In this document: positions 5,743 to 26,503 of the stretch, piece after piece
Layout: each line of letters starts with the position of its first letter
Numbering within the stretch: position 1 is the first letter of the stretch
Assembly: GCF_000025525.1 (NCBI RefSeq)
Contig: NC_013887.1
Coordinates: 1,188,729-1,252,728, forward strand
Source: Methanocaldococcus sp. FS406-22
GTDB lineage: Archaea > AGJL01 > Methanococci > Methanococcales > Methanocaldococcaceae
Direction of reading: 5' to 3'
Length of the DNA: 64,000 nt
Program-made: the position numbers and the translations under genes
Notes under the pieces: generated by a model
The model's database searches: none
What the model was told of the DNA's origin: nothing
The model's input: the letters and a program-made list of their open reading frames with translations, nothing else

Positions 5743-6174
5743 AATATTTATATGTGTTTCTTGATATTTTTATTTTAAGTTTTGATAATTTTTGGTTATA
5801 TTGTTGGAAGTTTATCTCGTTGGATGTGTTTAAAATTTGATAGAGGTAACAATTAGTTGGCATTTGCTTATTTAGAAGATTTAAATTTAATTTCTAAGGG
5901 TATAGCAATTTAATTGTTTGGAATATTTAGGTTTATTGAATTATTTAGATTTTTAAAATTTAAGATTAGATACTAAGTTAAATGAAATTTCTCCAACCAA
6001 TAAGTCAAATCTTCAAATTTAGAAAGATAAGAATACTTAATTTTGTTAAAAGGGAAAGATTTAAATATCAGTAGGTTTATAAATGAGGATAGTTATTTAC
6101 CCTTAGAAAAATATGGTGCCGAAAAGTATAAATATAAGAAAGATAATAAAAAATAAGTTGTGAATGATTGCCTT
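5743..6174 (+). promoter_or_regulatory. CRISPR locus 1 leader
   Basis: This 432-bp gene-free AT-rich stretch aligns along nearly its whole length with 18351-18783, the segment before CRISPR locus 2. Long conserved runs include GATTTAAATTTAATTTCTAA, AATCTTCAAATTTAGAAAGA and TTTAAATATCA-TAGGTTTATAA. A TATA-like AGTATAAATATA at 6125-6136 lies about 40-50 bases before the first repeat, a good position for a promoter that transcribes the array rightward. The conserved GATTGCC ends three bases before the first repeat. Published M. jannaschii work described similar ~400-bp 'long repeats' next to short-repeat arrays, which matches this layout. Confidence 0.88.
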
Positions 6175-7524
6175 GTTAAAATCAGACCGATTCGGTATGG
6201 AAACGACTTAAACTTATTGCAAGTAATATAATCTTTTAAAATGTTAAAATCAGACCGATTCGGTATGGAAACCTGTTGGAGAAGGAACATCCTCAGGATT
6301 TAAAGGTTAAAATCAGACCGATTCGGTATGGAAACCTTTATTCTGGAGGGCTACTTGAAACAGTAGATAGTGTTAAAATCAGACCGATTCGGTATGGAAA
6401 CATATTAAACCGAAATAAGCACAGTCCATATGTATTTTGTTAAAATCAGACCGATTCGGTATGGAAACTTGACTTTGAATCTAACGATTGTTATCGGTAC
6501 ACGTATTGTTAAAATCAGACCGATTCGGTATGGAAACTCAGTAGATTTAAATGCGTTCTTCGACATTTCAGGAGCTAAGTTAAAATCAGACCGATTCGGT
6601 ATGGAAACTTAATTTGGACTGTTATTGCAGTTGGCAAGGTTACATTATGTTAAAATCAGACCGATTCGGTATGGAAACCTAAATAAACAGGTTCAGAAGA
6701 TACGGGCGTATTGTTTGTTAAAATCAGACCGATTCGGTATGGAAACGTTGGAATCTAAAAAACTTATCAGAGTGTCCAAAACGTTTGGGTTAAAATCAGA
6801 CCGATTCGGTATGGAAACCTGTGCTACATTTCTGTCAATCCAATATGCTGGTGGCAAACAGATGGTTAAAATCAGACCGATTCGGTATGGAAACAAATCA
6901 GCAAGGATTATTGCCCAATGGTTTGCCTGGAAGTTAAAATCAGACCGATTCGGTATGGAAACTCCAACACTGTATTCTCACTGTAAGATATGTCGACATC
7001 GTTAAAATCAGACCGATTCGGTATGGAAACATTAATCAAGTTAATCTTGCTCTGATTCGTGAATTTATAGCGTTAAAATCAGACCGATTCGGTATGGAAA
7101 CTTCGTTTCAGACCACATTATCCACGACCCTGACAGCTAGTTAAAATAAGACCGATTCGGTATGGAAACTTGGATGTTGCACAATTAAACTTTAACGCTT
7201 ATTTGCAGTGTTAAAATAAGACCGATTCGGTATGGAAACATTACAAAGATTGATAATATAATTCGCTCAAAAGTTCCAGTTAAAATAAGACCGATTCGGT
7301 ATGGAAACGAGATGGAAATGTTAGAGAGGTTTTATGATAAGCCAGTGTTAAAATAAGACCGATTCGGTATGGAAACTTCTCTTCAACTATCCAACCGATT
7401 CTTCTCTGCCCATCCAGTTAAAATCAGACCTCTTTGAGGATGGAAACATTTCACAGTAATACCATCCAGACCACGTGCAGTCATCCCAGTATATGTATAT
7501 GGTTAAAATCAGACCTCTTAGAGG
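6175..7524 (+). CRISPR. CRISPR locus 1: 19 full repeats plus a degenerate terminal repeat
   Basis: The 30-nt repeat begins GTTAAAATCAGACC, has a palindromic core ACCGATTCGGT and ends ATGGAAAC, the usual 8-nt crRNA 5' tag. Full repeats start at 6175, 6243, 6306, 6372, 6439, 6508, 6579, 6649, 6717, 6789, 6865, 6933, 7001, 7072, 7140, 7210, 7279, 7347 and 7417. Spacers are 33-46 nt and all different by eye. The first 14 repeats read ...AATCAG; the next four (7140-7376) read ...AATAAG. The 19th (7417-7447, 31 nt) has the stem CCTC-TTT-GAGG instead of ACCG/CGGT. A last copy at 7502 stops after CCTCTTAGAGG and runs into T-rich sequence. The leader on the left and decay on the right give plus-strand orientation. 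There are no cas genes nearby. Confidence 0.98.
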
Positions 7525-7710
7525 TTTATTCTCTTTTTAAACCATTAAAATCAAAAGTAAAAAAGCTATTTTTATTCTTAAACTCAGTAATACTTATACA
7601 TCTAAATATATAACAAACTATTTAAATTAGTAATACTAAAAGAGAGAAAATCCCCAGAAAATTTTTCAACTAGTATTAAAAATTATTACAATTTAGAAAA
7701 AATAAAAGAT

Positions 7711-8736
7711 TTATGGATTCAACCCTATTTCAAATAACCCTTCTTTTTCATCAAATCCAAACATTATATTCATGTTCTGTATTGCCTGCCCACTTGCTCC
7801 CTTAACTAAATTATCTATTGCTGAGATAACCACCAATCTACCATGTTCATCAATCTCAAACCCACCAATATCACAGAAATTAGTTCCTCTAACCCAAGTT
7901 AATTTTGGCAAAACATCTGAAAACACTCTAACAAAAATCTCATTCTCATAAAACTTTTCATAGAGCTTAATTATCCCCTCTCTATCAACATCTTTAGCTA
8001 AGAATGTATGTGCAGTTGTTAAAATTCCTCTTGTTATTGGGGCTAAGTGAGGAGTGAATGAAACTTTAGCCTTTCCAAGTTTTTTTAATTCCTTTTCAAT
8101 CTCTGGGGTGTGTCTGTGGGTAGTTATCTTGTAAGGGTTTATATTTTCATTTACATTTGGGAAGTGGGTTGTTTCCGTTGGATTTACTCCTGCTCCACTA
8201 ACTCCAGTTTTTGAATCAAATATAATTCTCTCCTCTATAATTCCATCTTTAACTAATGGAGCAACAGCCAAAATAGCCCCTGTTGGGAAGCAGCCAGGAT
8301 TTGCTACAAGTTGAGCTTTTTTTATCTCCTCTCTATGCAATTCTGGCAATCCATAAGCAATTTTCACATCTGGCAATCCTTTATGTTTTATTTTATAATA
8401 TTTTTCATACAAGCTTAAATCCTCGAATCTGTAATCTCCACTTAAGTCAATAACTTTCATTCCCCTCTCAATAAAATCTGGAACTATATCCATTGAAGCT
8501 CCATGTGGTGTTGCAGTAAATACTAAATCAGCATCAACCTTATCAATATCTCCAGTAAAATAAAGCTCTTTATATTTTCCAATACCTTTTAAATGTGGGT
8601 GAATTTTGAAAACATGCTTTCCAGCTTCTTTTCTTGAGGTTATATATGCTACATTAACTTTTTCATGATTAGCCAATAATCTCAATAATTCAGCTCCTGT
8701 GTATCCAGTAGCCCCAATTATAGCCACTTCTTTCAT
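7711..8736 (-). CDS. argC: N-acetyl-gamma-glutamyl-phosphate reductase
   Basis: Third step of ornithine/arginine synthesis: NADPH-dependent reduction of N-acetylglutamyl phosphate to the semialdehyde. A LysW-linked or bifunctional role in lysine synthesis is also known in some archaea, but a lysA gene next door argues for the arginine role. Motifs: [14 protein letters not shown] (nucleotide binding, residues ~8-21), ATPHGASM, the catalytic cysteine in [11 protein letters not shown], and HRHTPEIE. Start: the frame opens at a GTG (8745), but GTGAT there is best read as the ribosome binding site for ATG 8736, giving 341 residues, normal for the family. The ~190 bp after the CRISPR end hold no gene. 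Confidence 0.93.
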
Positions 8737-8899
8737 AACTATCACACAATTTCATCAATTGTTTATATCGTTTTATTTATTTAGCATTAATTAATAGTTA
8801 GGTATTACCTACTTTAATCTTTTAAGCTATGGCTAAAAAATTAAAAAATACTCTTTGGAATGTTTTTTAGAAAAAATAAGATTAAAAATTAAAATGGAT

Positions 8900-10207
8900 T
8901 TATAGTAAATGAGGAGGAACTATATCCTTAGCAATTAAATCAGCATAAGTTTCTCTCTCCCTTATTAAAAATACTCCCTTCTTACTTGTTAAAACCATTC
9001 TTGGTCTTCCTCTTGCGTTATAGTTGTTAGCCATGCTAATTCCATAAGCACCAACATCAAATATAGCCAATATATCTCCAACCTCTACCTTGTCAAGCTC
9101 TCTATCTCTACCAAAGACATCACTACTCTCACAAAGCCCTCCAGCTACACTCACAACCTCTTTTTCATCCTTAACTTTACAGTTTATTATGTGATGATAT
9201 GCCTCATACATTGCAGGTCTCATCATATCGTTCATTCCAGCATCAATCATAACCCATTTTGTTACTGGTGTTTCTTTTATATGATGAACTTTTCCTAACA
9301 AATAGCCGGCAGTAGCTACCAAACTTCTACCTGGCTCTAATATGAGGTTTGGCATCTCTACCTTGTCTTGATATTGAAGCATTGTGTTTATTATTGCATC
9401 AGCTAAATCTTTTTGAGTTGGGATTTCTTTATCCTTATAGTAAGGAATTCCTAAACCTCCCCCTAAATTGACATCCTCAATCTCAATACCTTCTTTCTTT
9501 AATTCAACAACAAAATCCATAACCTTTCTTGTTTCTTCAACAAATGGACTTATATCTGTTAATTGAGAACCAATATGACAATGGACTCCAACAACCTTCA
9601 CATTCTCCATCTCTAAAGCCATTTTTATTGCTTTCATTGCAATTCCACTCTCAACATCCAAACCAAACTTATTTTTCTTTAAACCAGTTGAAATCTTTGG
9701 ATGTGTTTTTGGGTCAACGTTTGGATTTATTCTAAAAGCTACATTTGCTATCTCTCCAATCTCTTTTGCTGTTTCATTGATTAAGATTAGCTCACTTATG
9801 CTATCAACATTAAAAGCCCTTATCTTTGCTTCAATACCCATTATAATCTCTTCCTTTGTTTTACAGTTTCCATTAAAGACAATTTTATCTGAAGGAACTC
9901 CAGATAGCTTTGCTATATACAACTCTCCTCCACTAACAACATCTGCCCCACAACCTAATTTAGCTAACAATCTTGTAATAGCTAAGTTTGCATTTGCCTT
10001 ATATGCATAGGCAACAATAAACTCTTTTCCTGTCTCTTCCTCATATCTTTTAAATGCCTCAACATATCTGTTGTAATTTATCTTTATTTGCTCCTCTGAC
10101 ATCACATATAGAGGGGTTCCAAACTTCTCTGCTAATTCAATTGCATCATAACCATCTATAAACATTCTTCCATCTTTTATCTCTACCGTATCGTTGCCTA
10201 AAAACAT
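8900..10207 (-). CDS. lysA: Diaminopimelate decarboxylase
   Basis: PLP-dependent final step of lysine synthesis (meso-diaminopimelate to L-lysine). Fold-type III decarboxylase features are complete: PLP lysine in VAYAYKANANLA, VVSGGELY, HCHIGSQ, GGGLGIPY, the LEPGRS phosphate loop, and the interface active-site cysteine in GGLCESSDVFGRD. The sequence is nearly that known from M. jannaschii. The frame opens at 10222, but GGTGAAAAA directly precedes ATG 10207 (MFLGNDTVEI), giving 435 residues. The tRNA-Arg gene starts 37 bp upstream of this ATG on the same strand. Confidence 0.95.
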   Translation of the reverse strand: MFLGNDTVEIKDGRMFIDGYDAIELAEKFGTPLYVMSEEQIKINYNRYVEAFKRYEEETGKEFIVAYAYKANANLAITRLLAKLGCGADVVSGGELYIAKLSGVPSDKIVFNGNCKTKEEIIMGIEAKIRAFNVDSISELILINETAKEIGEIANVAFRINPNVDPKTHPKISTGLKKNKFGLDVESGIAMKAIKMALEMENVKVVGVHCHIGSQLTDISPFVEETRKVMDFVVELKKEGIEIEDVNLGGGLGIPYYKDKEIPTQKDLADAIINTMLQYQDKVEMPNLILEPGRSLVATAGYLLGKVHHIKETPVTKWVMIDAGMNDMMRPAMYEAYHHIINCKVKDEKEVVSVAGGLCESSDVFGRDRELDKVEVGDILAIFDVGAYGISMANNYNARGRPRMVLTSKKGVFLIRERETYADLIAKDIVPPHLL

Positions 10208-10243
10208 TTTTTCACCTAACAATCTCTTAATAAATAAAAATAA

Positions 10244-10317
10244 TGCCCCGGAGGGGATTTGAACCCCTGTCTGAGGGTCCGCAGCCCTCTATGCTATCCT
10301 GGCTACACCACCGGGGC
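10244..10317 (-). tRNA. tRNA-Arg (anticodon GCG)
   Basis: Minus strand, 74 nt without CCA. The acceptor GCCCCGG pairs with CCGGGGC, followed by discriminator A. The anticodon stem GAGGG/CCCTC encloses loop CTGCGGA, so the anticodon is GCG after U33, reading CGC/CGU arginine codons. The T stem AGGGG/CCCCT encloses TTCAAAT. The D arm is weaker, with G-U pairs. CCA is not encoded (TTA follows). It is the only tRNA seen in the window. It sits between mfnB (36 bp upstream) and lysA; the upstream gap is T/A-rich and could hold a short promoter. Confidence 0.96.
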
Positions 10318-10353
10318 TCTCTCATTCTAAAAATTAAAAATTAAAAAAATTTT

Positions 10354-11061
10354 TTATTTACAAAGCTCTTTCAACTCTCTAACTAACTCTCTATCTATTC
10401 TACCGTTATTTCTATCTCCTCCTTTACATGCAGCCCCCCTAACACCAACAATATCTGTTCCAATCTCCTTCAAGATTGGTATATGTTCCTTCTTTATTGA
10501 ACCAGCTAATGCACACTTCAACCCATAGCTATGGGCTTCATCAACGAACTCAGCTAAAATCTCTTTACTTTGGAAATCAAATAATGTCTTCCCATCTTTT
10601 ATTGCAGTATCTAACATAGCAACATCGCATCCAGCATCTCTCGCAATCTTTGGGATTATTAATGGTTCAACAGCTCCAACTCTATAAGCATCTGCATAAC
10701 CAGCAGCTACAACTATCTTATCTTCATCAATATCCTTAACAGCTTTAACAACATTTTTCATTAACTCAACTGCCTGATAATAATTTTTAACTCCATACAA
10801 TCCAACTTTTATATAATCAGCTCCACTTATAGCCGCTCCAACAGCAGCTAAAGAAATTGTTCCTGGTTTGTATGGAACATCTCCAACTGTAGCACTAACC
10901 AACAAATCTTTTGGAGTCACTTCTCTAATTGCCTTAATCATCCATGGAAAGTTAGCTCCTAAAGAACCTTCTTTTGGATTCTTTACATCTATAATGTCTG
11001 CTCCTCCAGCTATAGCCTCTTTTGCTTCTTCAACGTCTATAGGACTTACCAATAGTATCAT
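10354..11061 (-). CDS. mfnB: (5-formylfuran-3-yl)methyl phosphate synthase (methanofuran biosynthesis)
   Basis: Makes 4-(hydroxymethyl)-2-furancarboxaldehyde phosphate from two glyceraldehyde-3-phosphate molecules, the first dedicated step to the furan of methanofuran, the formyl carrier of methanogenesis. 235 residues in a TIM-barrel fold. With ATG 11061 as residue 1, Lys27 (IIDVKNP) and Lys85 ([10 protein letters not shown]) fall exactly on the two catalytic lysines reported for the M. jannaschii enzyme, which fixes the start. GGTG lies 6 bases upstream; a GTG three codons earlier is rejected. The C-terminal segment [18 protein letters not shown] is family-typical. Upstream begins the inverted-repeat element at 11095. 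Confidence 0.95.
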
Positions 11062-11094
11062 AACATACACCTATGATATTGATTTTAATGAAAA

Positions 11095-11194
11095 TTAATA
11101 GGACTTTCACAGTTTTATATATTACTTTGGAAATTGGATGCCCTTTGGGCATCTTTATTCAAATAATTATTTATTCCTGTGAAAGTCCTATTAA
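11095..11194. repeat. 100-bp element bounded by an 18-bp perfect inverted repeat
   Basis: The left end TTAATAGGACTTTCACAG (11095-11112) is the exact reverse complement of the right end CTGTGAAAGTCCTATTAA (11177-11194). The centre holds a second hairpin, GATGCCC-TTT-GGGCATC (11137-11153). No coding frame fits inside. It lies between divergent mfnB and glmM. The shape suggests a small non-autonomous mobile element or a repeated palindromic element. A weak partial match to the right end (CTATGAAAGTTCTGTTGG) occurs near 61080. Confidence 0.75.
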
Positions 11195-11303
11195 CAACAA
11201 TGTATATAAAAACTTAATGTTTCAATATGAACCTTATTTAATAATTTATTGTGTATTATGATGTAAGATTTATCCCTTTAGATTTTGTGGTAAAGGTGAT
11301 ATT

Positions 11304-12650
11304 ATGGGAAAATTATTTGGAACTTCTGGAATAAGAATGAAAAACTTATCCCCAAAAATTGCTTATAAAGTTGGCTTAGCAGTAGCTAAAAAGTATAAAA
11401 AAGTTGTAGTTGGAAGAGATACAAGGACTACTGGGAAGTTAATCGAAACAGCATTAACAGCTGGGATTTTAAATGGTGGTGGAGAGGTTACAACTATAAA
11501 TATAGTTCCAACACCTGTTTTAGGTTTTAACGCGAGGAATTATGATGCTGGAGTTATGATTACTGCCTCTCACAATCCTCCTGAGTATAATGGAATAAAG
11601 CTTTTTAATAAAAATGGTTTAGCTTTTAATAAAAAAGAAGAGGATGAGATAGAGGAAATTATATTCAAAGAGGATTTTATTGAAGTTGAGTGGCATAGTG
11701 TTGGCGAGATTTGGGAAGATAGTAGGGCAATAAGAAATTATATGGAGCATATTCTTAAAAATGTTGAAGTAAATGAGAAATTTAATGTGGTTGTTGATTG
11801 TGCAAACGCCTCTGCTTGCTTAGTATCACCATATCTATTTACAGATATTGGCTGTCATGTTATATCAGTCAATAGCCACATGGATGGAAGATTCATTGGT
11901 AGATTGCCAGAACCTGATGAAAAAAACTTAAGAAAGACAATGGACATGATTAAAGGCCTAAATATGAGTGGAGAGAGTTATATAGGCATAGCACACGATG
12001 GAGATGCAGATAGAATGGTAGCAATAGATGAAAAGGGAAGATTAGCTGATTTTGATAAGTTGTTAGCTGCTTTTTCAAGATATATGGTTGAAAAAACTGG
12101 CAATAAAACAATAGTTACAACAGTTGATGCCTCAATGATTATTGATGAATATTTAAAGGATTTAGATGTAAAAATTATAAGAACAAAGGTTGGAGATGTG
12201 GCTGTTGCTGAGGAGATGATTAAAAACTCTGCTGTTTTTGGTGGAGAGCCAAGTGGAACGTGGATTCATGCTGACATACATTTAACACCAGACGGTATTT
12301 TGAGTGGATTGAGAGTTTTAGAGATGTTAGAGTTCTACAATAAAAAATTATATGAAATATTGGATGAAATCCCATCTTATGTAAATTTAAGAGAGAAGAT
12401 TCCATGCGAAGATAGCAAAAAAGAAAAAGTAATGAATTATGTTATTGAGAATGGGGAGGGGATATTTAAAACAGTTCCTGAGACAGTTGATGGAGCAAGG
12501 TTTAACTTAGAGAATGGATGGGTTTTAATAAGACCTTCAGGGACCGAGCCATATATAAGGGTTAGAGTTGAGGCAAAAAATAATAAAGATGCTAAAGAGT
12601 TGTTAGAAAAAGGGATAAAGTTAGTTAAAGATGCTTTAACCTCTTCATAA
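11304..12650 (+). CDS. glmM: Phosphoglucosamine mutase
   Basis: Interconverts glucosamine-6-phosphate and glucosamine-1-phosphate on the way to UDP-GlcNAc, used for glycoconjugates and archaellin/S-layer glycans. 448 residues of the alpha-D-phosphohexomutase family: N-terminal GTSGIR, phosphoserine loop MITASHNPPEYNGIK, Mg-binding AHDGDADRM, sugar-binding GGEPSGTWI and C-terminal phosphate loop RPSGTEPYIRVR are all intact. The GEPSG element fits a phosphoglucosamine mutase. ATG 11304 follows AAAGGTGATATT. The glmU-like gene follows after 27 bp, so the two steps are probably co-transcribed. Confidence 0.93.
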   Translation: MGKLFGTSGIRMKNLSPKIAYKVGLAVAKKYKKVVVGRDTRTTGKLIETALTAGILNGGGEVTTINIVPTPVLGFNARNYDAGVMITASHNPPEYNGIKLFNKNGLAFNKKEEDEIEEIIFKEDFIEVEWHSVGEIWEDSRAIRNYMEHILKNVEVNEKFNVVVDCANASACLVSPYLFTDIGCHVISVNSHMDGRFIGRLPEPDEKNLRKTMDMIKGLNMSGESYIGIAHDGDADRMVAIDEKGRLADFDKLLAAFSRYMVEKTGNKTIVTTVDASMIIDEYLKDLDVKIIRTKVGDVAVAEEMIKNSAVFGGEPSGTWIHADIHLTPDGILSGLRVLEMLEFYNKKLYEILDEIPSYVNLREKIPCEDSKKEKVMNYVIENGEGIFKTVPETVDGARFNLENGWVLIRPSGTEPYIRVRVEAKNNKDAKELLEKGIKLVKDALTSS

Positions 12651-12677
12651 AATTATTTTTTATAATTGGTGATAGAA

Positions 12678-13910
12678 ATGGATGCTATAATACTATGTGC
12701 AGGGAAAGGAGAAAGGTTAAGACCGTTAACTGAAAATAGGCCAAAACCAATGATTCCTATAGCCGGAAAGCCAATTTTGCAACATATCATTGAGAAAGTT
12801 GAGGATTTGGTAAATAATATCTATCTAATTGTTAAGTATAAAAAAGAAAAGATTGTTGATTATTTTAAAAATCATCCAAAGGTTAAGTTTTTAGAGCAGG
12901 GAGAAATAGATGGAACTGGACAGGCAGTTTTAACTGCTAAGGATTACATAGATGATGAGTTTTTGGTTATAAATGGAGATATTATCTTTGAAGACAACTT
13001 AGATGAGTTTTTAAAATATAACTATGCTATTGCTATTAAAGAAGTAAAAAATCCAGAAAACTTTGGAGTTGTGGTTTTAGATGAAAATAATAACGTTATA
13101 GAACTCCAGGAAAAGCCAGAAAATCCAAAATCAAATCTAATAAATGCTGGAATATACAAATTTGATAGAAAGATTTTTGAATTAATTGAAAAAACAGAAA
13201 TTTCTGAAAGAGGGGAGAGAGAAATTACAGATGCAATAAAACTTTTAATTAAAGAAGAAAAGGTTAAAGCTATTAAGTTAAAAGGATATTGGAACGATGT
13301 TGGAAGACCATGGGATGTATTGGAAGCAAATAAATATCTACTGGATAAGATAAAAACAGACATTAAAGGAAAGGTTGAGGAGAACGTTGTTATTAAAGGA
13401 GAGGTTATAATAGAGGAGGGGGCTGTTGTTAAAGCAAATTCAGTTATTGAAGGGCCAGCAATTATTAAAAAAGGAGCTGTTATAGGGCCGTTAGCTTATA
13501 TAAGGCCATATACTGTTTTAATGGAAAATACCTTCGTTGGAAACTCATCTGAGGTTAAGGCAAGCATAATCATGAAGAATACAAAAATTCCTCACCTATC
13601 TTATGTTGGAGATAGTATAATTGGAGAAAACTGTAATTTTGGCTGTAATACAATCACTGCCAATCTAAGATTTGATAATAAACCAGTTAAGATTAATATA
13701 AAGGGTAAGAGAGTTGAGAGTGTTAGAAAATTGGGAGTTATAATGGGCGATAACGTTAAAACAGGTATTCAAGTTTCTTTTATGCCTGGGGTTAAAATTG
13801 GAAGTAACTGCTGGATTGGAGCAAGTTGTTTGATTGATAGGGATGTAGAGAGCAACACTTTTGTTTATAAGAGAGATGAATTAGTGTTTAAGAAGCTAAT
13901 CAACAAATAA
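12678..13910 (+). CDS. glmU: Bifunctional GlmU-like enzyme: GlcN-1-P acetyltransferase / UDP-GlcNAc pyrophosphorylase
   Basis: 410 residues. The N-terminal nucleotidyltransferase domain (to about residue 225) begins DAIILCAGKGERLRPLTENRPKPM, with LVINGDIIFE as metal-binding region and KGYWNDVGRPWDVLEA at its end. The C-terminal part is a left-handed beta-helix of hexapeptide repeats (VVIKGEVIIEEGAVVKANS onward), the acetyltransferase-type domain. Archaeal homologues join glucosamine-1-phosphate acetylation with UDP transfer; some also act on glucose-1-phosphate/dTTP, so nucleotide specificity is not certain. ATG 12678 has GGTGATAGAA directly upstream; an in-frame GTG/ATG earlier (12666) overlaps that site and is rejected. 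Confidence 0.9.
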   Translation: MDAIILCAGKGERLRPLTENRPKPMIPIAGKPILQHIIEKVEDLVNNIYLIVKYKKEKIVDYFKNHPKVKFLEQGEIDGTGQAVLTAKDYIDDEFLVINGDIIFEDNLDEFLKYNYAIAIKEVKNPENFGVVVLDENNNVIELQEKPENPKSNLINAGIYKFDRKIFELIEKTEISERGEREITDAIKLLIKEEKVKAIKLKGYWNDVGRPWDVLEANKYLLDKIKTDIKGKVEENVVIKGEVIIEEGAVVKANSVIEGPAIIKKGAVIGPLAYIRPYTVLMENTFVGNSSEVKASIIMKNTKIPHLSYVGDSIIGENCNFGCNTITANLRFDNKPVKINIKGKRVESVRKLGVIMGDNVKTGIQVSFMPGVKIGSNCWIGASCLIDRDVESNTFVYKRDELVFKKLINK

Positions 13911-13927
13911 ATAACCGGTGGGAATTA

Positions 13928-14398
13928 ATGATTATAGGAGCTAATACATCAAAAAACTTTTTTGAAAATTTGAAAGAGGAGCAGATTCAACAATGTGGAA
14001 TTGATTTGAGAGTTTGGAAGATATTTAAGATAGAAGGAGAGGGAGTTATTGATTTCTCAAATGAAAAAAGAAAGTTACCAAACTATATTGAGGTATTCAG
14101 TTCTGAAAAAGATGAATGTATAAAATTAGAGAGTGGAGTTTATATTGTAAAGGTAGCTGATTATATAAAAATCCCAGAAAACGTTGCTGGCTTTGCATAT
14201 CCAAGAAGTTCTCTATTGAGAATGGGAGCAACCTTATATTCTGCAGTTCATGACCCTGGCTATGAAGGAAGGCCAGAATATTTACTGCAGGTTTTTAATC
14301 CAATAACTATCTACAGATATGCAAGAATCGCCCAAATTGTTTTTGTTGAGTGTAAGGATGTTAGAGGAGTTTATGAAGGAATTTATAAAGGAAAATAA
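13928..14398 (+). CDS. dut: dUTP diphosphatase (dCTP deaminase-like family)
   Basis: 156 residues of the trimeric dUTPase/dCTP deaminase fold. Key parts: GIDLRVWKIF near the N-terminus, the uracil/phosphate motif YPRSSLLRMGATLYSAVHDPGYEGRPEYLLQ split over residues ~95-125 (with the catalytic-type Asp in HDPGYEG), and ARIAQIVFVE. M. jannaschii has two such genes; the shorter one has been annotated as dUTPase, which matches this length. Likely role: removing dUTP and supplying dUMP for dTMP synthesis. ATG 13928 follows CCGGTGGGAATTA. 17 bp behind the glmU-like gene on the same strand, probably in one transcript. Confidence 0.85.
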   Translation: MIIGANTSKNFFENLKEEQIQQCGIDLRVWKIFKIEGEGVIDFSNEKRKLPNYIEVFSSEKDECIKLESGVYIVKVADYIKIPENVAGFAYPRSSLLRMGATLYSAVHDPGYEGRPEYLLQVFNPITIYRYARIAQIVFVECKDVRGVYEGIYKGK

Positions 14399-14410
14399 GA
14401 TAAAATAAAA

Positions 14411-15313
<903 letters not shown>

Positions 15314-15329
15314 TTAAACTACTTTTAAT

Positions 15330-15986
15330 TTATTCTTCTAAAAACATCTTTCTTATAGCATCAGCGGCATCTTTCTTAACTAAAACTAAAACTCTATCTC
15401 CTGATTTTAATTCAGTGTCTCCACTTGGGATTTTTAGCTCATCCCCATCATAGATGGCAATTATTAAATAATCTTGTGGTCTTCCAAGCTCTTTAATCTT
15501 CTTATTAACTACCTTGGACTTTTCTGGGATTATAAACTCTAAAATCTCTGCTTCTCCTCTACCAACAATAGTTAAATCTAAAATTCCTGGTCTTTCTATT
15601 AATTTTTCTATATAGTTAGCAGCTATCAATTCTGGGGAGATAACTACATCAACTCCAAGCCTTTCAAAAACATCCTTATACTCAATCTCTGAAATCCTTG
15701 CAATGGTTTTCTTAACTCCACAACTCTTAGCTAATAGAGTGCTCATTAAATTAACCTCTTCCTTTCCAGTAACCGCTATATACATATCTGCATCCTCTAT
15801 TCCAGCCTCCTCCAATGTTTTTATCTTTGTGCAGTCCCCATTAATCACTAAAGCATCTATATCTGCAGACGCCTTTTTGCACTTCTCCTTATCTATGTCA
15901 ATTAAAACAATGTCATGCCCTTTTTCAGATAGAGATTTAGCTAAAGTATAACCAACTCTACCAATCCCAGCTATTATTATATACAT
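15330..15986 (-). CDS. trkA: TrkA-type potassium uptake regulatory protein (RCK N and C domains)
   Basis: 218 residues, cytoplasmic. The N-terminal RCK/TrkA-N Rossmann domain has IIAGIGRVGYTLAKSL as nucleotide-binding loop, an acidic VLIDIDKEKC turn and VINGDCTKIKTLEEAGIEDADMYIAVTG. The C-terminal ~80 residues (VGRGEAEILEFIIPEKSKVV to SGDRVLVLV) form a TrkA-C domain. Such proteins gate TrkH-type potassium transporters in response to NAD(H)/ATP. No transporter gene is adjacent. ATG 15986 follows GGTGTTAAACT. Confidence 0.92.
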   Translation of the reverse strand: MYIIIAGIGRVGYTLAKSLSEKGHDIVLIDIDKEKCKKASADIDALVINGDCTKIKTLEEAGIEDADMYIAVTGKEEVNLMSTLLAKSCGVKKTIARISEIEYKDVFERLGVDVVISPELIAANYIEKLIERPGILDLTIVGRGEAEILEFIIPEKSKVVNKKIKELGRPQDYLIIAIYDGDELKIPSGDTELKSGDRVLVLVKKDAADAIRKMFLEE

Positions 15987-16012
15987 AGTTTAACACCACA
16001 CGAAAAAATTAT

Positions 16013-16567
16013 TTATATGATTATCTTTTCATAATAATCCTCATATCCAAAATGCCAGTGTTTAATCTTTTCTTTCAACTCTTTCTCAAGCTCCAATATT
16101 TTATCAAACTCCTCCTTAGTTAGATATCCAATAAATCCTCTTTTTATTGCCTCTTCACATTTCAAACTGCAAGGAATGAAACCTGAAGGCAGAACAATGG
16201 CATAAACTCCCCTATTTTTTAACTCTTCTCTCATTTCTTCAACTTCTTTTAAATGCTCTCTATCTATTGCCACTCTAACATCTTCAACAAAAGATTTTAT
16301 ACAGCATTCTGGGTAATCTAAAAGCTTTCCTATTTCAAAATCATCCAATCTTCTATAAATTCCGAGTTCTGTTGATACAACTGGGTCTATAGCTGGTCTA
16401 ACCTTTGGTTTGTATTTTTCAACAATTTCAATTTGGAACTTTAATCTATTGACTATATTTTGATATTGAAACTCATCTAAGCTCTGTATATGTTCCTTTA
16501 GAGTTTCAAATCCCTCTAACTCTCCAGTCCTTAATTTTTCAATTTTATATAAGAGTTTTTTAAGCAT
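16013..16567 (-). CDS. DUF483 family protein, function unknown
   Basis: 184 residues, soluble, Lys/Glu-rich with mostly helical segments at both ends. Cysteine motifs LLDYPECCIKSF (near residue 95) and SGFIPCSLKCEEA (near residue 137) give four cysteines that could bind a metal or iron-sulfur cluster. From recall this matches the DUF483 family found mainly in archaea. AAGTGAAAAC lies before ATG 16567. It sits between pheT and trkA on the same strand. No function can be assigned from context. Confidence 0.7.
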   Translation of the reverse strand: MLKKLLYKIEKLRTGELEGFETLKEHIQSLDEFQYQNIVNRLKFQIEIVEKYKPKVRPAIDPVVSTELGIYRRLDDFEIGKLLDYPECCIKSFVEDVRVAIDREHLKEVEEMREELKNRGVYAIVLPSGFIPCSLKCEEAIKRGFIGYLTKEEFDKILELEKELKEKIKHWHFGYEDYYEKIII

Positions 16568-16621
16568 GTTTTCACTTAAAAAATTTTTATTGAGGCATTA
16601 CTAATATTATTAGTTGATAAT

Positions 16622-18274
16622 TTATTGTCCATCAATCTCTAACTCAAACCCAACAACTGGAAACTCTAACTCAAAGTTGGTAATAACCTCTGGATGAATC
16701 TCTCCAAAGTAGCCAATAATTTTGCCATCTTTTATTATTTTAGCACATCTTCCTTTAATGAATGATGGATGTTCAAAATTATCAAGCTCATACTCAATTT
16801 TAAGTTCTCTTAACAATCCCTCAACGTAGCTCTTTATCTCATTAAAGTTTGTTTCATTATCTACAATAACTCCAGCTATTTTTTTGATTGTCTTTGCTCT
16901 TGTCTCAGAATTTTCATCAATAACAACACAATCTCCAATCTCAAATATTTTTTGTGGCAACTCTTTATGTTTATTTATCCTCAAAGTTTCCATTAATAAT
17001 GGTAGAATGCTTTTTCTAACTATTCTATGCTCAATTGATGCTGGTTTCAAAACTTCTATATAGTTGTTGTCTTCAATTCTCATCTTTTTAAATAAAACCT
17101 CATCATTTGAGAGCATTAAGTTTATAACCTCGTAGAATCCAAATCCAACCATAATTTCTCTTATAAAATCACACTTCTTTTCTAATTGGTTGAGTTCCCC
17201 AATAGTTCCAATAATTGGGTATTCTCCAGAGAATTTATTATAACCGTAAGCGATAGCTACTTCTTCAGCAATGTCAATCTCTCCAAAGACATCTACCCTA
17301 TAGGCTGGGATATAAACCTTTATTTTGTTATCCATAAATTGGGCATCCAATCTACATCTTCTTAAGTAATTTATTATAGACCCAGGGGTTAAGTTTGTTC
17401 CTAAAACTTTGTTTATGTATTCAGGAGTAGTTTCTAAGACATCCTCCTTTAAATTTGGATAAACTACACTCTCTCCATTTTTAATTACTTCAACGGCATG
17501 TATTTTTCCATATTTTCTCTCTGCTAATGCGGTAACAATAATATTTAGAGTTTTTTCTACTGCATATTTATCAGTTCCAGTAACATCAATCAACAAATTC
17601 CTTGTTTCAGTTGTAACTCTTGTTAATTCTCCGTTAATTATTGGTGGCATTGATAAAACATTATTTTCACTATCTAAAATAATTGGAAACTTATCATCTT
17701 TAATTAAATGGGCATATTTTATTCCTTTTTCATGTTTTTCTAAAATCTCTCTTGGTGTCATTTCCTCATCTGAGTTTAATGGAACAAACTTAATCTCATC
17801 CCCACTAACTTCTTTGTAGTAGAATGGGGGCTTAACTTTATCTGCATCGTGAATTCCTATTGCCACTTTTTTCCTATCTCTCCCCATAACCCAGTGTAAT
17901 TTCTCTTGAAGGTTAATAATGCTCTCTAAAACATAATCATCAACAATAACACCCTTAACTAAAGCCATAGCTATATAAGGCCTTGTTTCAACATTTTCAA
18001 CATATAGTTTTATGTCTGAACTCTCAATGTCATATTTTTTTAATCCTGTTTCTATCCCAATAATTCCTCTAAAACCTCTTGCTAAACCTTCAGCACTTAA
18101 ATAATCTGGCCTATTTGGGTTTATTGAGAACTGAATAATTTTTTCTCCATCTTCTTCAAAGATTCCTTCAACCTCAACACCCATCATAGGGAATTTTTCT
18201 TCAATAAATTCGTCATCTAATGGCATATTAACTAATCTCTCTAAATCAGCTTTTTTTACATTTATTGTTGGCAT
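16622..18274 (-). CDS. pheT: Phenylalanyl-tRNA synthetase beta subunit
   Basis: 550 residues, the archaeal/eukaryotic-type beta chain. The B1-like N-terminus is [20 protein letters not shown], followed by [22 protein letters not shown], the B5 domain ([26 protein letters not shown]) and the catalytic-like core [20 protein letters not shown] near the C-terminal third. It pairs with PheS (not in this window) to charge tRNA-Phe and holds the editing domain. GGTGAGAAG precedes ATG 18274. Upstream, a 7-bp hairpin TAAGCTA-AC-TAGCTTA (18315-18330) lies in the promoter region next to the CRISPR leader. Confidence 0.95.
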
Positions 18275-18350
18275 CTTCTCACCAGCAGTATTCTTTATAA
18301 GTTTATTGTAATAATAAGCTAACTAGCTTAATAAAGCTTTATTACTGCAA

Positions 18351-18783
18351 AATATTTATATATGAGTTTGTCGATATTTTTTGATTAAGGTGTTTTTAGG
18401 TGTTTATTATATTGTTGTGTTTGTCTCGTTGAATAAACTCGGAATTTGATAAAAGTAATAATTAATTAGTATTTATCAATTTAGTGGATTTAAATTTAAT
18501 TTCTAAGGGTCTGTTGGTTTAATCGTTTGGAATATTTAGGTTTATTAAATTATTTGGATTTTTAAAAATTAAGATTGGATATTTAGCTAAATAAAATTTC
18601 CCTAACCAATAAGTTAAATCTTCAAATTTAGAAAGATAAGAATACTTAATTTCGTTAAAAGAGAAAGATTTAAATATCATTAGGTTTATAAATAAAGATA
18701 GTTATCTATACTTAGAAAAATACACCACCAAAAAGTATAAATATTAGAAGTGTAATAAAAAATAGGTTGTTGATGATTGCCCT
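18351..18783 (+). promoter_or_regulatory. CRISPR locus 2 leader
   Basis: 433 bp, gene-free and homologous to 5743-6174 over the whole length, with scattered substitutions and roughly one net indel. TATA-like AAGTATAAATATT at 18733-18745 lies at the same distance from the first repeat as in locus 1. Both leaders end in GATTGCC followed by two or three bases and the first repeat. The homology begins at AATATTTATA and does not extend into the upstream genes, so the repeated unit is leader plus array. Confidence 0.87.
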
Positions 18784-20366
18784 GTTAAAATAAGACCGAT
18801 TCGGTATGGAAACAATCTACATTAACAGGTAATGACTGTCCTGTATCTGAACGCTCGTTAAAATAAGACCGATTCGGTATGGAAACAATTGTTTAGCAAC
18901 ATTTAAAGCAGTTTCTAATGTTAAAATAAGACCGATTCGGTATGGAAACTTGGTCAATGGCATTGATTGAGAATTCAATATCAACTGTTAAAATCAGACC
19001 GATTCGGTATGGAAACACTATTTTCATAGCTGTGAATAAAAAAGAGCGAGTTAAAATCAGACCGATTCGGTATGGAAACATCTACAAACTCTAAGTCTAA
19101 TCCAAAAACTACGCAATAATTAAAATCAGACCGATTCGGTATGGAAACCAGGTTTTGGCAAAAATTACAAAGCATTCATCTTTAGACAATTAAAATCAGA
19201 CCGATTCGGTATGGAAACTGATATTTTCTAAAATGTTTGAGTTTTACTCTATGATACATTAAAATCAGACCGATTCGGTATGGAAACCAGTACTTTGCAG
19301 AAGTGCAAAAACTGGCTGAAGCGATAATTAAAATCAGACCGATTCGGTATGGAAACGCCTTTTGTCTTTGTGGCTCGGGGAGGGCATTTCGCCCTATTAA
19401 AATCAGACCGATTCGGTATGGAAACGTGGTAGTTGCTATTTTAAATCTTAAGTATCTTAACGATAATTAAAATCAGACCGATTCGGTATGGAAACAAGCT
19501 TCTTACTCAAAAATATGCTCTTCAAGTATTAATTAAAATCAGACCGATTCGGTATGGAAACTGGCAATATTTACCAGTAGGGCAACTAAGAATGCGATTA
19601 GATTAAAATCAGACCGATTCGGTATGGAAACATGTTTGAACGCTCGTTGGATATAGGTATATATTTGCTCCATTAAAATCAGACCGATTCGGTATGGAAA
19701 CATGTTTGAACGCTCGTTGGATATAGGTATATATTTGCTCCATTAAAATCAGACCGATTCGGTATGGAAACATGTTTGAACGCTCGTTGGATATAGGTAT
19801 ATATTTGCTCCATTAAAATCAGACCGATTCGGTATGGAAACAAGCTTCTTACTCAAAAATATGCTCTTCAAGTATTAATTAAAATCAGACCGATTCGGTA
19901 TGGAAACACTTCCAAACTTCTTTCCTACCTTCAACCTTGACAGTAATCTCAAAATCATTAAAATCAGACCGATTCGGTATGGAAACTCAGCCACTGCCCC
20001 ACCACCAAGATTAAACCACTTAAGTTAAAATAAGACCGATTCGGTATGGAAACATGACAACCTATAGGCCGACCGAAAGCTTTATATAGTGTTAAAATAA
20101 GACCGATTCGGTATGGAAACGAACCTCCAGAAACTAACTCCCTGTGAACTAAATCACCAAGATGTTAAAATCAGACCTCTTGGAGGATGGAAACTGATTT
20201 TCTTCCTTCAGTGGGTGCCTACTTATCCACACTATTTTAGTTAAAATCAGACCGATTCGGTTATATTAAAAGAGATTATGTGGGGCTGAAAGCCCCACCT
20301 TAATCTATTCTGGGTATACCAATAGGGCAAAGCCCTATGGAATTAGACCGATTCGGTATAAAAATT
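18784..20366 (+). CRISPR. CRISPR locus 2: 21 full repeats plus decayed distal copies
   Basis: Same 30-nt repeat family as locus 1. Starts: 18784, 18857, 18920 (GTT...AATAAG type); 18987, 19050 (GTT...AATCAG); 19119, 19189, 19258, 19327, 19396, 19466, 19532, 19602, 19672, 19742, 19812, 19878, 19957 (ATT...AATCAG); 20024, 20091 (GTT...AATAAG); 20164 (31 nt, stem CCTC-TTG-GAGG). A copy at 20240 breaks off after GATTCGGT and a last remnant (TAGACCGATTCGGTAT) lies at 20344-20359. Spacers are 33-49 nt. Spacers 19632-19671, 19702-19741 and 19772-19811 are identical, and 19496-19531 equals 19842-19877. No cas genes flank it. Confidence 0.98.
20263..20340. repeat. Two-hairpin segment inside the decayed end of CRISPR locus 2
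   Basis: Between two broken repeat copies lie about 78 bp with two perfect hairpins, GTGGGGCT-GAA-AGCCCCAC (20280-20298) and ATAGGGC-AAA-GCCCTAT (20322-20338). It is much longer than a normal spacer. It could be an insertion into the last spacer or a terminator-like structure ending the array transcript. No coding frame. Confidence 0.55.
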
Positions 20367-20478: not shown

Positions 20479-21072
20479 ATGATAATAGAAATTGAAGGGA
20501 TTAAACTAAAACTACACCCAGAAGTTTATGAACCAGCTGAAGACTCTATCTTATTGCTAAAAAATCTCGTCAATGTTAAAAATAAAGAGGTTTTAGAAAT
20601 AGGTATTGGAACTGGATTAATTTCAATTGCATGTGCAAAAAAAGGGGCTAAAAAAGTCGTTGGAGTTGATATAAATCCTTATGCTGTAAAATTGGCAAAA
20701 GAAAATGCTAAGCTAAATAATGTTGATGTTTTATTTTTTGAAAGTGATTTATTCGAAAATGTTAATGGAAAATTTGACATCATCTTATTCAACCCCCCAT
20801 ATCTGCCAACCTCTGAGGATGATAAAATAAACAGCTACTTAAATTATGCATTTGATGGAGGAAAAGATGGGAGAGAAATTTTAGATAGGTTTATTTACAA
20901 CTTACCAAACTATTTAAAAAAGGGAGGAGTGGCTCAAATTCTACAGAGTTCTTTAACTGGAGAAAAGGAAACAATAAATAAACTGAAATCTCTTGGTTTT
21001 AAAGTTGAAATATCTGCCCGTTTAAAAGTTCCATTTGAAGAACTTATAGTTATAAATGCATGGAGGTTATGA
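20479..21072 (+). CDS. HemK/PrmC-family protein-glutamine N5-methyltransferase
   Basis: 197 residues, class I SAM methyltransferase. EVLEIGIGTGLISIACAKKGA is the SAM-binding loop (around residue 38), VVGVDINPYAVKLA follows, and FNPPYLPT is the NPPY motif that marks methylation of glutamine side chains. Archaeal relatives of eukaryotic Mtq2 methylate the GGQ glutamine of release factor aRF1, the most likely role here. The N-terminal helper domain of bacterial PrmC is absent, as in archaeal Mtq2-like proteins. GGTGAGAACTG precedes ATG 20479. Its stop overlaps the region carrying the ribosome binding site of the next gene. Confidence 0.87.
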   Translation: MIIEIEGIKLKLHPEVYEPAEDSILLLKNLVNVKNKEVLEIGIGTGLISIACAKKGAKKVVGVDINPYAVKLAKENAKLNNVDVLFFESDLFENVNGKFDIILFNPPYLPTSEDDKINSYLNYAFDGGKDGREILDRFIYNLPNYLKKGGVAQILQSSLTGEKETINKLKSLGFKVEISARLKVPFEELIVINAWRL

Positions 21073-21074
21073 AT

Positions 21075-21809
21075 ATGAAAGCTAAAGAAATTATAGAGTT
21101 TATTGAAAGCTTTGCTCCTAAAGATTTAGCTATTGAGGGAGATAACATTGGTTTGCAAGTTGGAGATGATTTAAATAAAGAAGTAAAAAAATTAGGCATT
21201 GCTTTAGACCCTTCACTATCAGTGATTAAGAAAGCAAAAAAAGAGGGAGTAGATTTTCTATTCACTCATCATCCTATATTAAAAGACCCAATAAGAAATT
21301 TCACTGGAGTTATTTACAAAAAATTAAAGATATTGATGGAAAATGATATCATCCTTTACTCTGCCCATACAAACTTGGATATCTGCAAAAATGGGTTGAA
21401 TGATGCTTTAGCTGAACTTTACAATTTAGAAAATCCAAAACCATTGTATGATAATGGACTTGGGAGGGTTGGGATTTTTAAAGGAACATTTGAGGAATTT
21501 TTAGAGATAACTAAAAAACACATCCATGAAAATCCTATTGTTGTTAAAAGTAAAGAAGTAGGAGATAACTTTAGATTAGCCGTTTTATCTGGTTATGGTT
21601 TATCTCAATCATCTATAAAGTATGTTGCTGAGAAAGCAGATGTTTATCTTTCAGGAGATTTAACTCACCACTCAAAAATTTTAGCTGAGGAGCTTGGTTT
21701 AGTTGTTGTTGATGCTACGCACTACTCAACTGAAGTGTTTGGATTAAAAAAATTTAAGGAATTTTTATCTTCAAATTTGGATTTGGAGATAGTTAGCTTA
21801 GATTTTTAA
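21075..21809 (+). CDS. NIF3/YbgI family dinuclear metal protein (GTP cyclohydrolase I type 2 homologue)
   Basis: About 244 residues. Metal-binding signatures of the NIF3 family are present: FLFTHHPILK (two His), YSAHTNLD (His and Asp) and the C-terminal VVDATHYSTE. The family folds into a hexameric ring with two metals per subunit; GTP cyclohydrolase activity has been proposed for some members but its role here is unproven. ATG codons at 21060, 21069 and 21075 are in frame; GGAGGT at 21061-21066 fits ATG 21075 best. Translation is probably coupled to the upstream methyltransferase, whose stop is at 21072. Confidence 0.85.
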   Translation: MKAKEIIEFIESFAPKDLAIEGDNIGLQVGDDLNKEVKKLGIALDPSLSVIKKAKKEGVDFLFTHHPILKDPIRNFTGVIYKKLKILMENDIILYSAHTNLDICKNGLNDALAELYNLENPKPLYDNGLGRVGIFKGTFEEFLEITKKHIHENPIVVKSKEVGDNFRLAVLSGYGLSQSSIKYVAEKADVYLSGDLTHHSKILAEELGLVVVDATHYSTEVFGLKKFKEFLSSNLDLEIVSLDF

Positions 21810-21813
21810 ATTT

Positions 21814-22581
21814 TTAGTATAGTTTAATGTTAATTTCATATTCCATATTGTATGGCTTAGAGTTTAAAATTTCCATTATTCTATTTTTTATAGGCTCAGT
21901 TTTTATAGGTTTTTTAATAATTCCCAAAGATTTTTTCTGTATTATTATTATATCGCACTTGCAAATATATCTATTATTATATCGTCCAATTTTAATTTTT
22001 AAAGCGTAATCTTCAATTAAATCTTGGTCTTTTAAAATTGACAATACATTTTTATCCAATTCATTTTCAATTGAAAGCTCTATATCCTTTATTTCATCTT
22101 CTGTTAATAATGTATCTTCGCCATAGTCAAAAGTCTCTTTTATTAGATTTTCTATAAATTCCTCATCTGGTTCTTTAATTCCCAGTTGTTTTAAAAGTTC
22201 ATCCCTTGACAGTGTTCCACTCTCAATGGTGTTTAATTCCACAGTGTTTGTTTTTTTAATTTTCTTTTTTTGGACTCTTGGAATCGTATCCAATACATCA
22301 CAAACAATTATTTTTTCACATCCATTTTCTGATTTTAACACTTCAAGTAAATCTTGTATGGCATCATTTAATTTCTCTTCATCTACAATAGCTTCAATTT
22401 TTGTAAATTCTTCTAACACCTCTGTCTCATATATTTGCCCCCTATATTCAATGACAATTTTTTTATTACTTTTTTCTTTTATATCTGAAAGAACATACTC
22501 GTCTATAATGGCATATCTTTTCAAAATATTTAAACAGTACAAAATTTTGTTTTGGGGGAGAATTATCTCTATTTTTTTCAT
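21814..22581 (-). CDS. Hypothetical protein
   Basis: 255 residues, not recognised. The N-terminal part (KKIEIILPQNKILYCLNILK to EAIVDEEKLNDAIQDLLEVL) is alternating strand/helix. A charged middle linker (VQKKKIKKTNTVELNTIESG) follows, then an acidic helical stretch (EDTLLTEDEIKDIELSIENEL) and a C-terminal beta-rich half (ALKIKIGRYNNRYICKCDIIII). Seven cysteines are scattered without a clear CxxC pair. GGTGATGGA directly before ATG 22581 decides the start; 36 more codons are open upstream but have no binding site. Convergent with the NIF3 gene and divergent from the HTH gene, so it is its own transcription unit. Confidence 0.6.
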   Translation of the reverse strand: MKKIEIILPQNKILYCLNILKRYAIIDEYVLSDIKEKSNKKIVIEYRGQIYETEVLEEFTKIEAIVDEEKLNDAIQDLLEVLKSENGCEKIIVCDVLDTIPRVQKKKIKKTNTVELNTIESGTLSRDELLKQLGIKEPDEEFIENLIKETFDYGEDTLLTEDEIKDIELSIENELDKNVLSILKDQDLIEDYALKIKIGRYNNRYICKCDIIIIQKKSLGIIKKPIKTEPIKNRIMEILNSKPYNMEYEINIKLY

Positions 22582-22811
22582 TCCATCACCCTGCCAAGAT
22601 ATTACGGAAAGAAATTTCCTTCCGTCCATGGTGTTATACACCAAACCCCTATAAAAAGATAACCTAACCAACATTCTATTATTATGCACTTTAAAATAAC
22701 TGAAAAGTTTTATATATGATTTGAAATTTAACTAAAATTATTAATTATTAAATACCAAAAATTATCAAAGTTTAGTAAATTTTTTTATTAAAATAAATTT
22801 AGTGTGAGAGT

Positions 22812-23132
22812 ATGTCAATCTTCTATGTTCTTGGAAAGAAGGGAACGATAGAGATATTGTATAAAATTAAGGAAGGTGTAAATTCTTTCACAAGCATAAA
22901 AAATGCTTTAGATATGGAAGGATGTGGGGTAAGCACAAGAACATTAGCAGAGAGATTAAATGAATTAGAAGAAGAAAATCTAATACAAAAAGACGGAAGT
23001 AAATACTATCTAACAAAGAAAGGACAGGAGGCAATAGAGATTATTGAAGATATTATGAAATGGGAGGCAAAGTGGAAAGAAGCAAAGATTCCTAAGATTA
23101 TAATAGGAATGCTTGGTGATAAAGAGAGATAA
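22812..23132 (+). CDS. Small winged-helix transcription regulator (HxlR-like)
   Basis: 106 residues. FYVLGKKGTIEILYKIKEG, then GVSTRTLAERLNELEEENLIQK as recognition-helix region, and KYYLTKKGQEAIEIIEDIMKW as wing and dimer helix. This is the pattern of HxlR/PadR-type single-domain winged-helix regulators. GTGTGAGAGT precedes ATG 22812. The following MinD-like gene starts only 19 bp after its stop, suggesting an operon and perhaps control of that gene pair. No effector domain is visible. Confidence 0.78.
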   Translation: MSIFYVLGKKGTIEILYKIKEGVNSFTSIKNALDMEGCGVSTRTLAERLNELEEENLIQKDGSKYYLTKKGQEAIEIIEDIMKWEAKWKEAKIPKIIIGMLGDKER

Positions 23133-23151
23133 ACGTTACAGGTGGATACAA

Positions 23152-23922
23152 ATGAAGGTAATCACATTCTCAATTGCAAAAGGTGGAACTGGAAAAACAA
23201 TTATTACAGCAAATGTTGCAGCAGCTTTAGCAACCAGAGGTAAAAAAATCTTACTAATTGATGGAGATATAGGCTCAAAGTCTTTATCCCATCTTCTAAA
23301 TGTGAAATCAAATATATTTTTAGCGGACATTATCGAAGAAGAACGCCCAATAAAAGATGCCATTATCAAAACTCCAATTAATAACATCGAATTATTGGTA
23401 GTTGGAAAATCACTTGCTGATTATCTAAAATTCGACATAAATATTTTAAAGAGATTCAAAGAGTTGGGGGATTATGATTATGTGTTTATAGATGCTCCAT
23501 CGACATCAAGTGGTGTTGAAACGTACTTAGCTTTAGGTCTTTCTGACTACTTCATCCCAGTTTTAGATTACACTGCCTTTGGTCCAAGTTTGCAAGGGGC
23601 TATAAATACAATAGTCATTGGAAAGAACTATCTAGAAAGCATACCTGCAGGATTTATAATAAACAAAGCCGAGGATTTACCGGAGAGTGTAATTAACGAT
23701 ATCAAGAAAATATTAGGATTGGAGTGCATCTCCATAATCCATAAAAATTCTCTCGTAGAGCAATCTTATGCAAAAAAAGAAATAGTCTATCTAACCTCTT
23801 TAGACAGGAAATTTGCCGAAGAAATTAACAAAATCGTTGATGCTTTAGAAAAGCTAAAAGAGGTAAAAGAAAGGGACATTCCAAAGGTCATTGAGAAAAT
23901 AAAAGAAAGTACATTACTATAA
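23152..23922 (+). CDS. ParA/MinD-family ATPase
   Basis: 256 residues, deviant Walker A P-loop: ITFSIAKGGTGKTIITANVA with the signature lysine (KGGTGKT) of the MinD/ParA/Mrp group. ILLIDGDIGSKSLSHLL and YDYVFIDAPSTSSGVE are switch regions, and GFIINKAED is the guanine/adenine-side strand. The C-terminus (LEKLKEVKERDIPKVIEKIKES) is helical, but no clear amphipathic membrane-targeting sequence is visible. Start: GGTGGATACAA lies before ATG 23152. An open frame to 23113 overlaps the HTH gene and is rejected. Partner and cargo unknown. Confidence 0.85.
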   Translation: MKVITFSIAKGGTGKTIITANVAAALATRGKKILLIDGDIGSKSLSHLLNVKSNIFLADIIEEERPIKDAIIKTPINNIELLVVGKSLADYLKFDINILKRFKELGDYDYVFIDAPSTSSGVETYLALGLSDYFIPVLDYTAFGPSLQGAINTIVIGKNYLESIPAGFIINKAEDLPESVINDIKKILGLECISIIHKNSLVEQSYAKKEIVYLTSLDRKFAEEINKIVDALEKLKEVKERDIPKVIEKIKESTLL

Positions 23923-23959
23923 GGACTTTCTCAGGAGCAAACTCTTAATTCTAATTTAA

Positions 23960-25445: not shown

Positions 25446-25516
25446 ATGTTATTAATAAATATCTAGCTATTTTCATTATATTATTACAATTTTCGTAATT
25501 TTTAAGTATGCTCTCC

Positions 25517-25534: not shown

Positions 25535-25563
25535 ATTCCTTAGTAACAAATAATGGTGAAACT

Positions 25564-26466: not shown

Positions 26467-26503
26467 TAAATTTTGCAAAAACTATTAAATATTTTGTGGG
26501 ACT

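Follow-up and report, generated by a model that had tools for sequence, protein, structure and literature searches.

Which history is recorded when the last repeats of a CRISPR array carry a stem that differs from all the others on both sides and is still paired? The question is raised by two arrays in a window of 64,000 nucleotides from Methanocaldococcus sp. FS406-22 (NC_013887.1, positions 1,188,729 to 1,252,728), the whole stretch of DNA analysed here. A sequence-only reading of these loci proposed that both sides of the stem had changed together under selection on the hairpin recognized by Cas6, or that an older repeat class survived at the array ends. Here we report that the deviating repeats belong to a second full repeat class, and we propose, with a probability of roughly 0.8, that the dispersed arrays of this genome exchange heads and tails by recombination and conversion, while growth at the leader end copies the first repeat. 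The array features in the window are listed below, with the two repeat types termed class A and class B.

5795-6174, plus strand: leader of array 1, A-type, ending in ATAAAAAATAAGTTGTGAATGATTGCCTT; boundary of the conserved leader approximate
6175-7376, plus strand: array 1, 18 class-A repeats GTTAAAATMAGACCGATTCGGTATGGAAAC of 30 nt with spacers; Rfam RF01326, CRISPR-DR13
7417-7447, plus strand: complete class-B repeat in array 1, 31 nt, CCTC-TTT-GAGG; Rfam RF01358, CRISPR-DR39, match on the other strand
7502-7524, plus strand: terminal class-B half-repeat of array 1, CCTC-TTA-GAGG stem present, 3′ tag gone
7525-7705, plus strand: AT-rich trailer of locus 1, also at nine other places in the genome; none longer than 45 nt in 13 congeners
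7720-18450, no strand: 10.7-kb block separating the two same-orientation arrays; collinear in the relative G001, at another place
18404-18783, plus strand: leader of array 2, A-type; boundary approximate
18784-20120, plus strand: array 2, 20 class-A repeats with spacers, several beginning with A, not G
20164-20194, plus strand: complete class-B repeat in array 2, 31 nt, CCTC-TTG-GAGG, penultimate; Rfam RF01358
20240-20261, plus strand: terminal class-A repeat of array 2, broken off after the stem
20262-20359, plus strand: inserted palindromic element GGGGCTGAAAGCCCC, CCAATAGGGCAAAGCCCTATGG, then a second AGACCGATTCGGTAT at 20345-20359; resembles a target-site duplication

Several other features lie in or beside these loci. 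The palindromic element in the terminal A repeat of array 2 is about 84 nt long, with a target-like duplication of 13-15 nt that includes the second AGACCGATTCGGTAT, and its 32-nt core also occurs close to an array in G001 (L110, L181). Spacers are duplicated internally in array 2 (L102, window 19466-19877), one being present three times and another twice; elsewhere, a two-spacer unit is present three times in L099 (639-1061), and one spacer occurs seven times consecutively in L133 (1222-1660), an A-class array of the relative G004. The inter-array block contains a minus-strand tRNA gene (window 10244-10317), and two dispersed repeats, each about 100 nt long and multicopy in both relatives, lie at about 11085-11195 and 27565-27725 of the window.

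Two repeat classes in single arrays

The CCTC..GAGG repeats stand where the sequence-only reading had placed them and with the letters it had given: GTTAAAATCAGA-CCTC-TTT-GAGG-ATGGAAAC at 7417-7447, GTTAAAATCAGA-CCTC-TTA-GAGG at 7502-7524, and GTTAAAATCAGA-CCTC-TTG-GAGG-ATGGAAAC at 20164-20194. Upstream of them lie 18 (locus 1) and 20 (locus 2) repeats of the ACCGATTCGGT kind, and the 13-nt start of the repeats has 46 matches against 3.8 expected, which is not attributable to chance. Array 1 extends over 6175-7524, its 18 A repeats being followed by two B repeats, the last without the 3′ tag, and array 2 over 18784-20261, with 20 A repeats, then one of class B (20164) and finally another of class A (20240). 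The CCTC repeats are hence the last ones in locus 1, as had been thought, but not in locus 2, where an A-type repeat comes after. Similarly, the flanks of the CCTC stem are unchanged, as described, at 7417 and 20164, whereas the ATGGAAAC tag is missing from the copy at 7502.

The two classes differ in length (30 nt in class A, 31 nt in class B) and fold almost alike. RNAfold gives class A a 4-bp stem with a 3-nt loop, ACCG-ATT-CGGT, at -4.2 kcal/mol, and class B a stem and loop of the same dimensions, CCTC-TTR-GAGG, at -4.1 kcal/mol; both hairpins sit directly 5′ of the same 8-nt ATGGAAAC tag. The normal stem is paired, as had been noted, but the 1-nt loop of the form ACCGA-T-TCGGT cannot form.

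Class B is by no means confined to array ends: its start, AAAATNAGACCTC, has 75 copies in the genome and fills whole arrays. Leaders precede 21 arrays in the genome, eight of them all-B and 13 A-headed. The eight all-B arrays have leaders, regular repeats at a spacing of 63-81 nt and unique spacers, as expected of genuine arrays. B repeats occur near the tail in 8 of the 13 A-headed arrays (seven by class call and the decayed L094 by eye), and none of the eight B-headed arrays of this genome ends in A, with the true last repeat of L093 too decayed to be classed. The repeats at 7417 and 20164 match RF01358, and the A repeats RF01326, above the cut-offs of these curated families. Both window classes were thus already catalogued in Rfam, which lists CRISPR-DR13 and CRISPR-DR39 as separate families, whereas in the window both share single arrays.

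The class B start was found in 9 of the 14 genomes of the genus, G007, G011, and G013 among them, and arrays were analysed in this genome, G001, and G004. Mixed arrays make up 19 of the 52 in these three genomes. Their repeats are strongly stratified: the class changes 23 times, as opposed to 46.3 times on average and 34 times at the lowest in 20,000 shuffles (four of the strings were hand-edited). Mixed arrays of G004 run in both directions, with an A head and B tail in L122, L124, L135, and L139, and a B head and A tail in L126, L128, L129, and L132.

An origin of the terminal stems by change on both sides, under selection on the Cas6 hairpin, would agree with the perfect pairing and similar energy of the two stems. 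It is extremely improbable nonetheless, and the all-B arrays largely refute it: eight arrays consist of B alone, B has a Rfam family of its own, no intermediate stem exists among the 525 internal repeats of the three genomes, each of which is A-like or B-like within two mismatches, and the class difference includes a 1-nt change of length. In its narrow form, co-mutation of terminal stems only, it was rejected on the same all-B arrays. The CCTC..GAGG repeats are a second full repeat class, not a stem co-mutated at array ends. The other option, an older repeat class whose end survives, came near the truth in positing a separate class, with the qualification that tails would hold the former class after a switch of the head.

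Terminal repeats and trailers

Terminal repeats were located by their 5′ motif alone, since calling the class by the stem would favour kept stems. Over 53 terminal repeats, changes affect 31 of the 368 sites in stems and 129 of the 424 in tags. When shared tails are collapsed the counts are 29/270 and 83/320 (Fisher p 2.8e-6), in a test that treats sites as independent and scores the stem against the better of the two classes, which favours the stem. A looser scan, with up to five mismatches in the 5′ part, gave 102/296 for the stem and 129/344 for the tag after deduplication and was rejected because it had mistaken unrelated AT-rich sequence for repeats. Paired double changes occur in two terminal stems, CATC-TTA-GATG in L092 and TCTC-TTA-GAGA in L135. 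Together with the lesser change of stems than of tags, which an origin by co-mutation might also claim in its favour, these lend selection on the hairpin modest support, separate from the origin of class B. Non-paired changes in terminal repeats of other loci, which had been named as evidence against such selection, do occur in a minority, the stem being lost in L093, L134, and L136, for example.

Comparable patterns are known from the CRISPR loci of Escherichia and Salmonella, for which the accessible part of PMC2886076 describes decay at the 3′ end of the terminal repeat, as well as runs of one repeat variant that imply copying of adjacent repeats. The arrays studied here share the 3′ decay, with divergence concentrated in the tag, and the stretches of variants. 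They differ, as far as that part of the source goes, in that the stretches are whole classes distinct in stem and length, most likely derived from exchange between loci. The class difference itself is not decay: the tail repeats of mixed arrays belong to the class that fills other arrays, instead of being worn copies of the repeat that heads their own.

The tail of locus 1, 204 nt counted from the half-repeat, recurs at nine more places in the genome (at one of them without the first 68 nt) and has no match beyond 45 nt in 13 congeners. Nine arrays and a decayed tenth have the locus 1 type of end, and the trailer is missing from 11 of the 21 arrays. A common ancestor of the distal ends of loci 1 and 2, as first suggested, is not borne out, since the locus 1 tail and trailer stand at nine other places, whereas locus 2 closes with an A repeat and a trailer of another kind; a tail common to the two loci is ruled out by the lack of the shared trailer at locus 2. 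Both relatives have a different trailer in common at sites 1693281, 926377, and 979353 (aligned over 122, 141, and 77 nt), from which it appears most likely that this genome replaced its trailer there.

Such a recurrent end could be functional in itself, with the terminal B half-repeat and the T-rich trailer serving 3′ processing of the last crRNA or termination of transcription, and the module having spread since it was useful. The CCTC-TTA-GAGG stem is followed by TTTATTCTCTTTTT and the end folds at -6.8 kcal/mol, the same end recurs at nine arrays and the decayed tenth, and the stem is retained where the tag is lost. We nevertheless consider this decidedly unlikely: more than half of the arrays (11/21) and all congeners do without the trailer, several terminal repeats (L093, L134, L136) have lost the stem, and 3′ decay as described for Escherichia in the accessible part of PMC2886076 needs no special function.

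Flanks, leaders and chromosome order in three genomes

Flanks of 5 kb beyond leader and trailer were compared between this genome, G004, and G001. Both flanks fall on array flanks of this genome in 11 of the 18 arrays of G004; three of these keep the same partner, and eight are re-paired, the upstream flank matching that of one array in this genome and the downstream flank that of another. The downstream flank of locus 1 is joined in G004 to the upstream flank of our array 150764, and that of locus 2 to the upstream flank of our array 1152005. In G001 the partner is kept at three loci and differs at five (161019, 321364, 974312, 1236547, and the tandem pair 1464714/1466619); G001_784070 is complex, its array lying about 2 kb off the junction, and at the remaining loci at most one flank is matched. 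Among best matches, side and orientation are retained at 26 of the 27 matched flanks of G004 and at 23 of the 24 of G001, and 9 of 36 and 4 of 28 flanks, respectively, have no partner match.

One reciprocal pair is found in G001, where arrays 161019 and 321364 swap the flanks of our 321361 (plus strand) and 476335 (minus strand). As the latter two are oppositely oriented, this is the swap that an inversion would give; a second candidate pair is complicated by the displaced array. The single array G001_974312 combines the upstream flank of locus 1 with the downstream flank of locus 2, and the 10.7-kb block that separates the two loci here remains collinear at another place in G001; in G004 it is bounded by two arrays. 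An array-free control, window 21000-40900 (19.9 kb), is one collinear run in both relatives; the collinearity control extends over these 20 kb and the 10.7-kb block only.

Three sites have the same flanks here and in G004, and at each the tail is B in both genomes while the class of the head differs (here and in G004, respectively: A13 B and B11, with the last copy of B11 decayed; B6 and A12 B; B14 and A15 b). As both flanks are kept and the heads differ, crossover alone is insufficient. Class agrees between genomes at 5 of 14 shared downstream flanks for tails, and at 5 of 13 shared upstream flanks for heads. Tails are therefore not conserved by site, and the older class at a given site is mostly not readable from them.

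Leaders are mosaic in a corresponding manner. The outer part of leader L096 is 98.6% identical to that of the all-B L087 and its inner part 98.3% to that of the all-A L100; L104 is A-like outside and 100% identical to L087 inside; and L097 is 100% identical to L088 in its outer part and A-like in its inner part. A tree of leaders shows no clean split by class, blurred as it is by these mosaics.

The mosaic leaders and the three sites with conserved flanks, B tails, and different heads could also come from switching of heads in place, through short conversion of the leader-side repeat, with the distal repeats as fossils of the former class of the site and the shuffling of flanks a separate matter. 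As the only process this is unlikely, though worth keeping in view, given that 8 of the 11 traceable G004 arrays are re-paired, that tail class agrees at just 5 of the 14 shared downstream flanks, and that this genome appears to have replaced a trailer common to both relatives at 1693281, 926377, and 979353.

Exchange of heads and tails as the proposed mechanism

The preferred reading, exchange of both heads and tails between arrays, starts from what is seen in these genomes: two classes, strata of heads and tails, leaders of mosaic composition, flanks that are re-paired, and, at ten places, a tail specific to this lineage. The two classes, with hairpins alike and an identical 8-nt tag, would be interchangeable, and roughly twenty dispersed arrays would recombine with one another through their leaders and repeats. 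A crossover would join the head of one array (leader and leader-side repeats) to the tail of another (old repeats and trailer), and crossovers between arrays would rearrange the chromosome; shorter conversion tracts would swap a head alone or a tail alone. Since a new repeat would be copied from the leader-side repeat, an array with an exchanged head would grow in the new class only, leaving the former class as its last one to three repeats. The agent is presumably ordinary homologous recombination, and copying of the first repeat into new ones probably holds for this organism too. No spacer is common to different arrays (0/525); with spacers turned over in this way, no crossover was caught in the act.

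The cas genes are consistent with equivalence of the classes. The genome has one Cas1 (PF01867) and one Cas6 (TIGR01877; PF10040 gave none), and two Cas6 matches were found in each of G001, G004, and G011. A separate Cas6 for class B was rejected for this genome on account of the single TIGR01877 match, and one Cas6 probably cuts both stems. In the cas locus (L193, 4833-15160), I-B-like and I-A effector sets adjoin, with the one Cas6 and one Cas1: Cas6 and Cas7, Cas5, Cas3, Cas4, and Cas1 of the I-B kind are accompanied by Csa5, Cas7, and Cas5a of the I-A kind. This adjacency, together with the near-equal stems, would also fit an arrangement in which each class is tied to one effector module beside the single Cas6 and Cas1, hybrid arrays feeding both. 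We hold it to be very unlikely, for the crRNA tag is identical in both classes and the head class switches freely between species at the same site.

Returning to exchange of heads and tails, its widest form is a genome-wide network in which heads and tails spread as separate modules and reshuffle chromosome order, with two functionally equivalent classes, one Cas1, one Cas6, and strata that record the exchanges. We regard this wider proposition as evenly balanced.

Large inversions at CRISPR loci have been reported in Thermotogales (De Boy et al. 2006, J Bacteriol, as described in the accessible part of PMC5052741), where, as here, CRISPR loci lie at sites of inversions and rearrangements. Compared with that description, the present case involves some twenty arrays dispersed through the genome, heads and tails marked by two repeat classes, re-pairing of flanks traced on both sides, and mosaic leaders. 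A passage on inversions in Thermococcales (PMC5495485) makes no link to CRISPR loci, and the accessible parts of PMC3396285, PMC2946923, and PMC8616872 contain nothing on exchange of heads and tails. A literature search, mostly without subscription papers, returned no report of repeat classes that mark exchanged heads and tails or are mixed within arrays. The location of CRISPR loci at inversions and the copying of adjacent repeats are already known; the use of repeat classes as markers of exchanged heads and tails is apparently new, in that we found no paper describing it.

The order of an array is usually read as the history of one locus, in which spacers grow older towards the tail. Should heads and tails be exchanged between loci, the spacers of a tail may derive from elsewhere in the genome, and conserved tails would be no proof of descent at the site. 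The two classes also offer a natural test of how far a single Cas6 tolerates a different stem sequence. From the standpoint of genome evolution, exchange between arrays, if true, would be a concrete driver of chromosome reshuffling in an array-rich archaeal genus.
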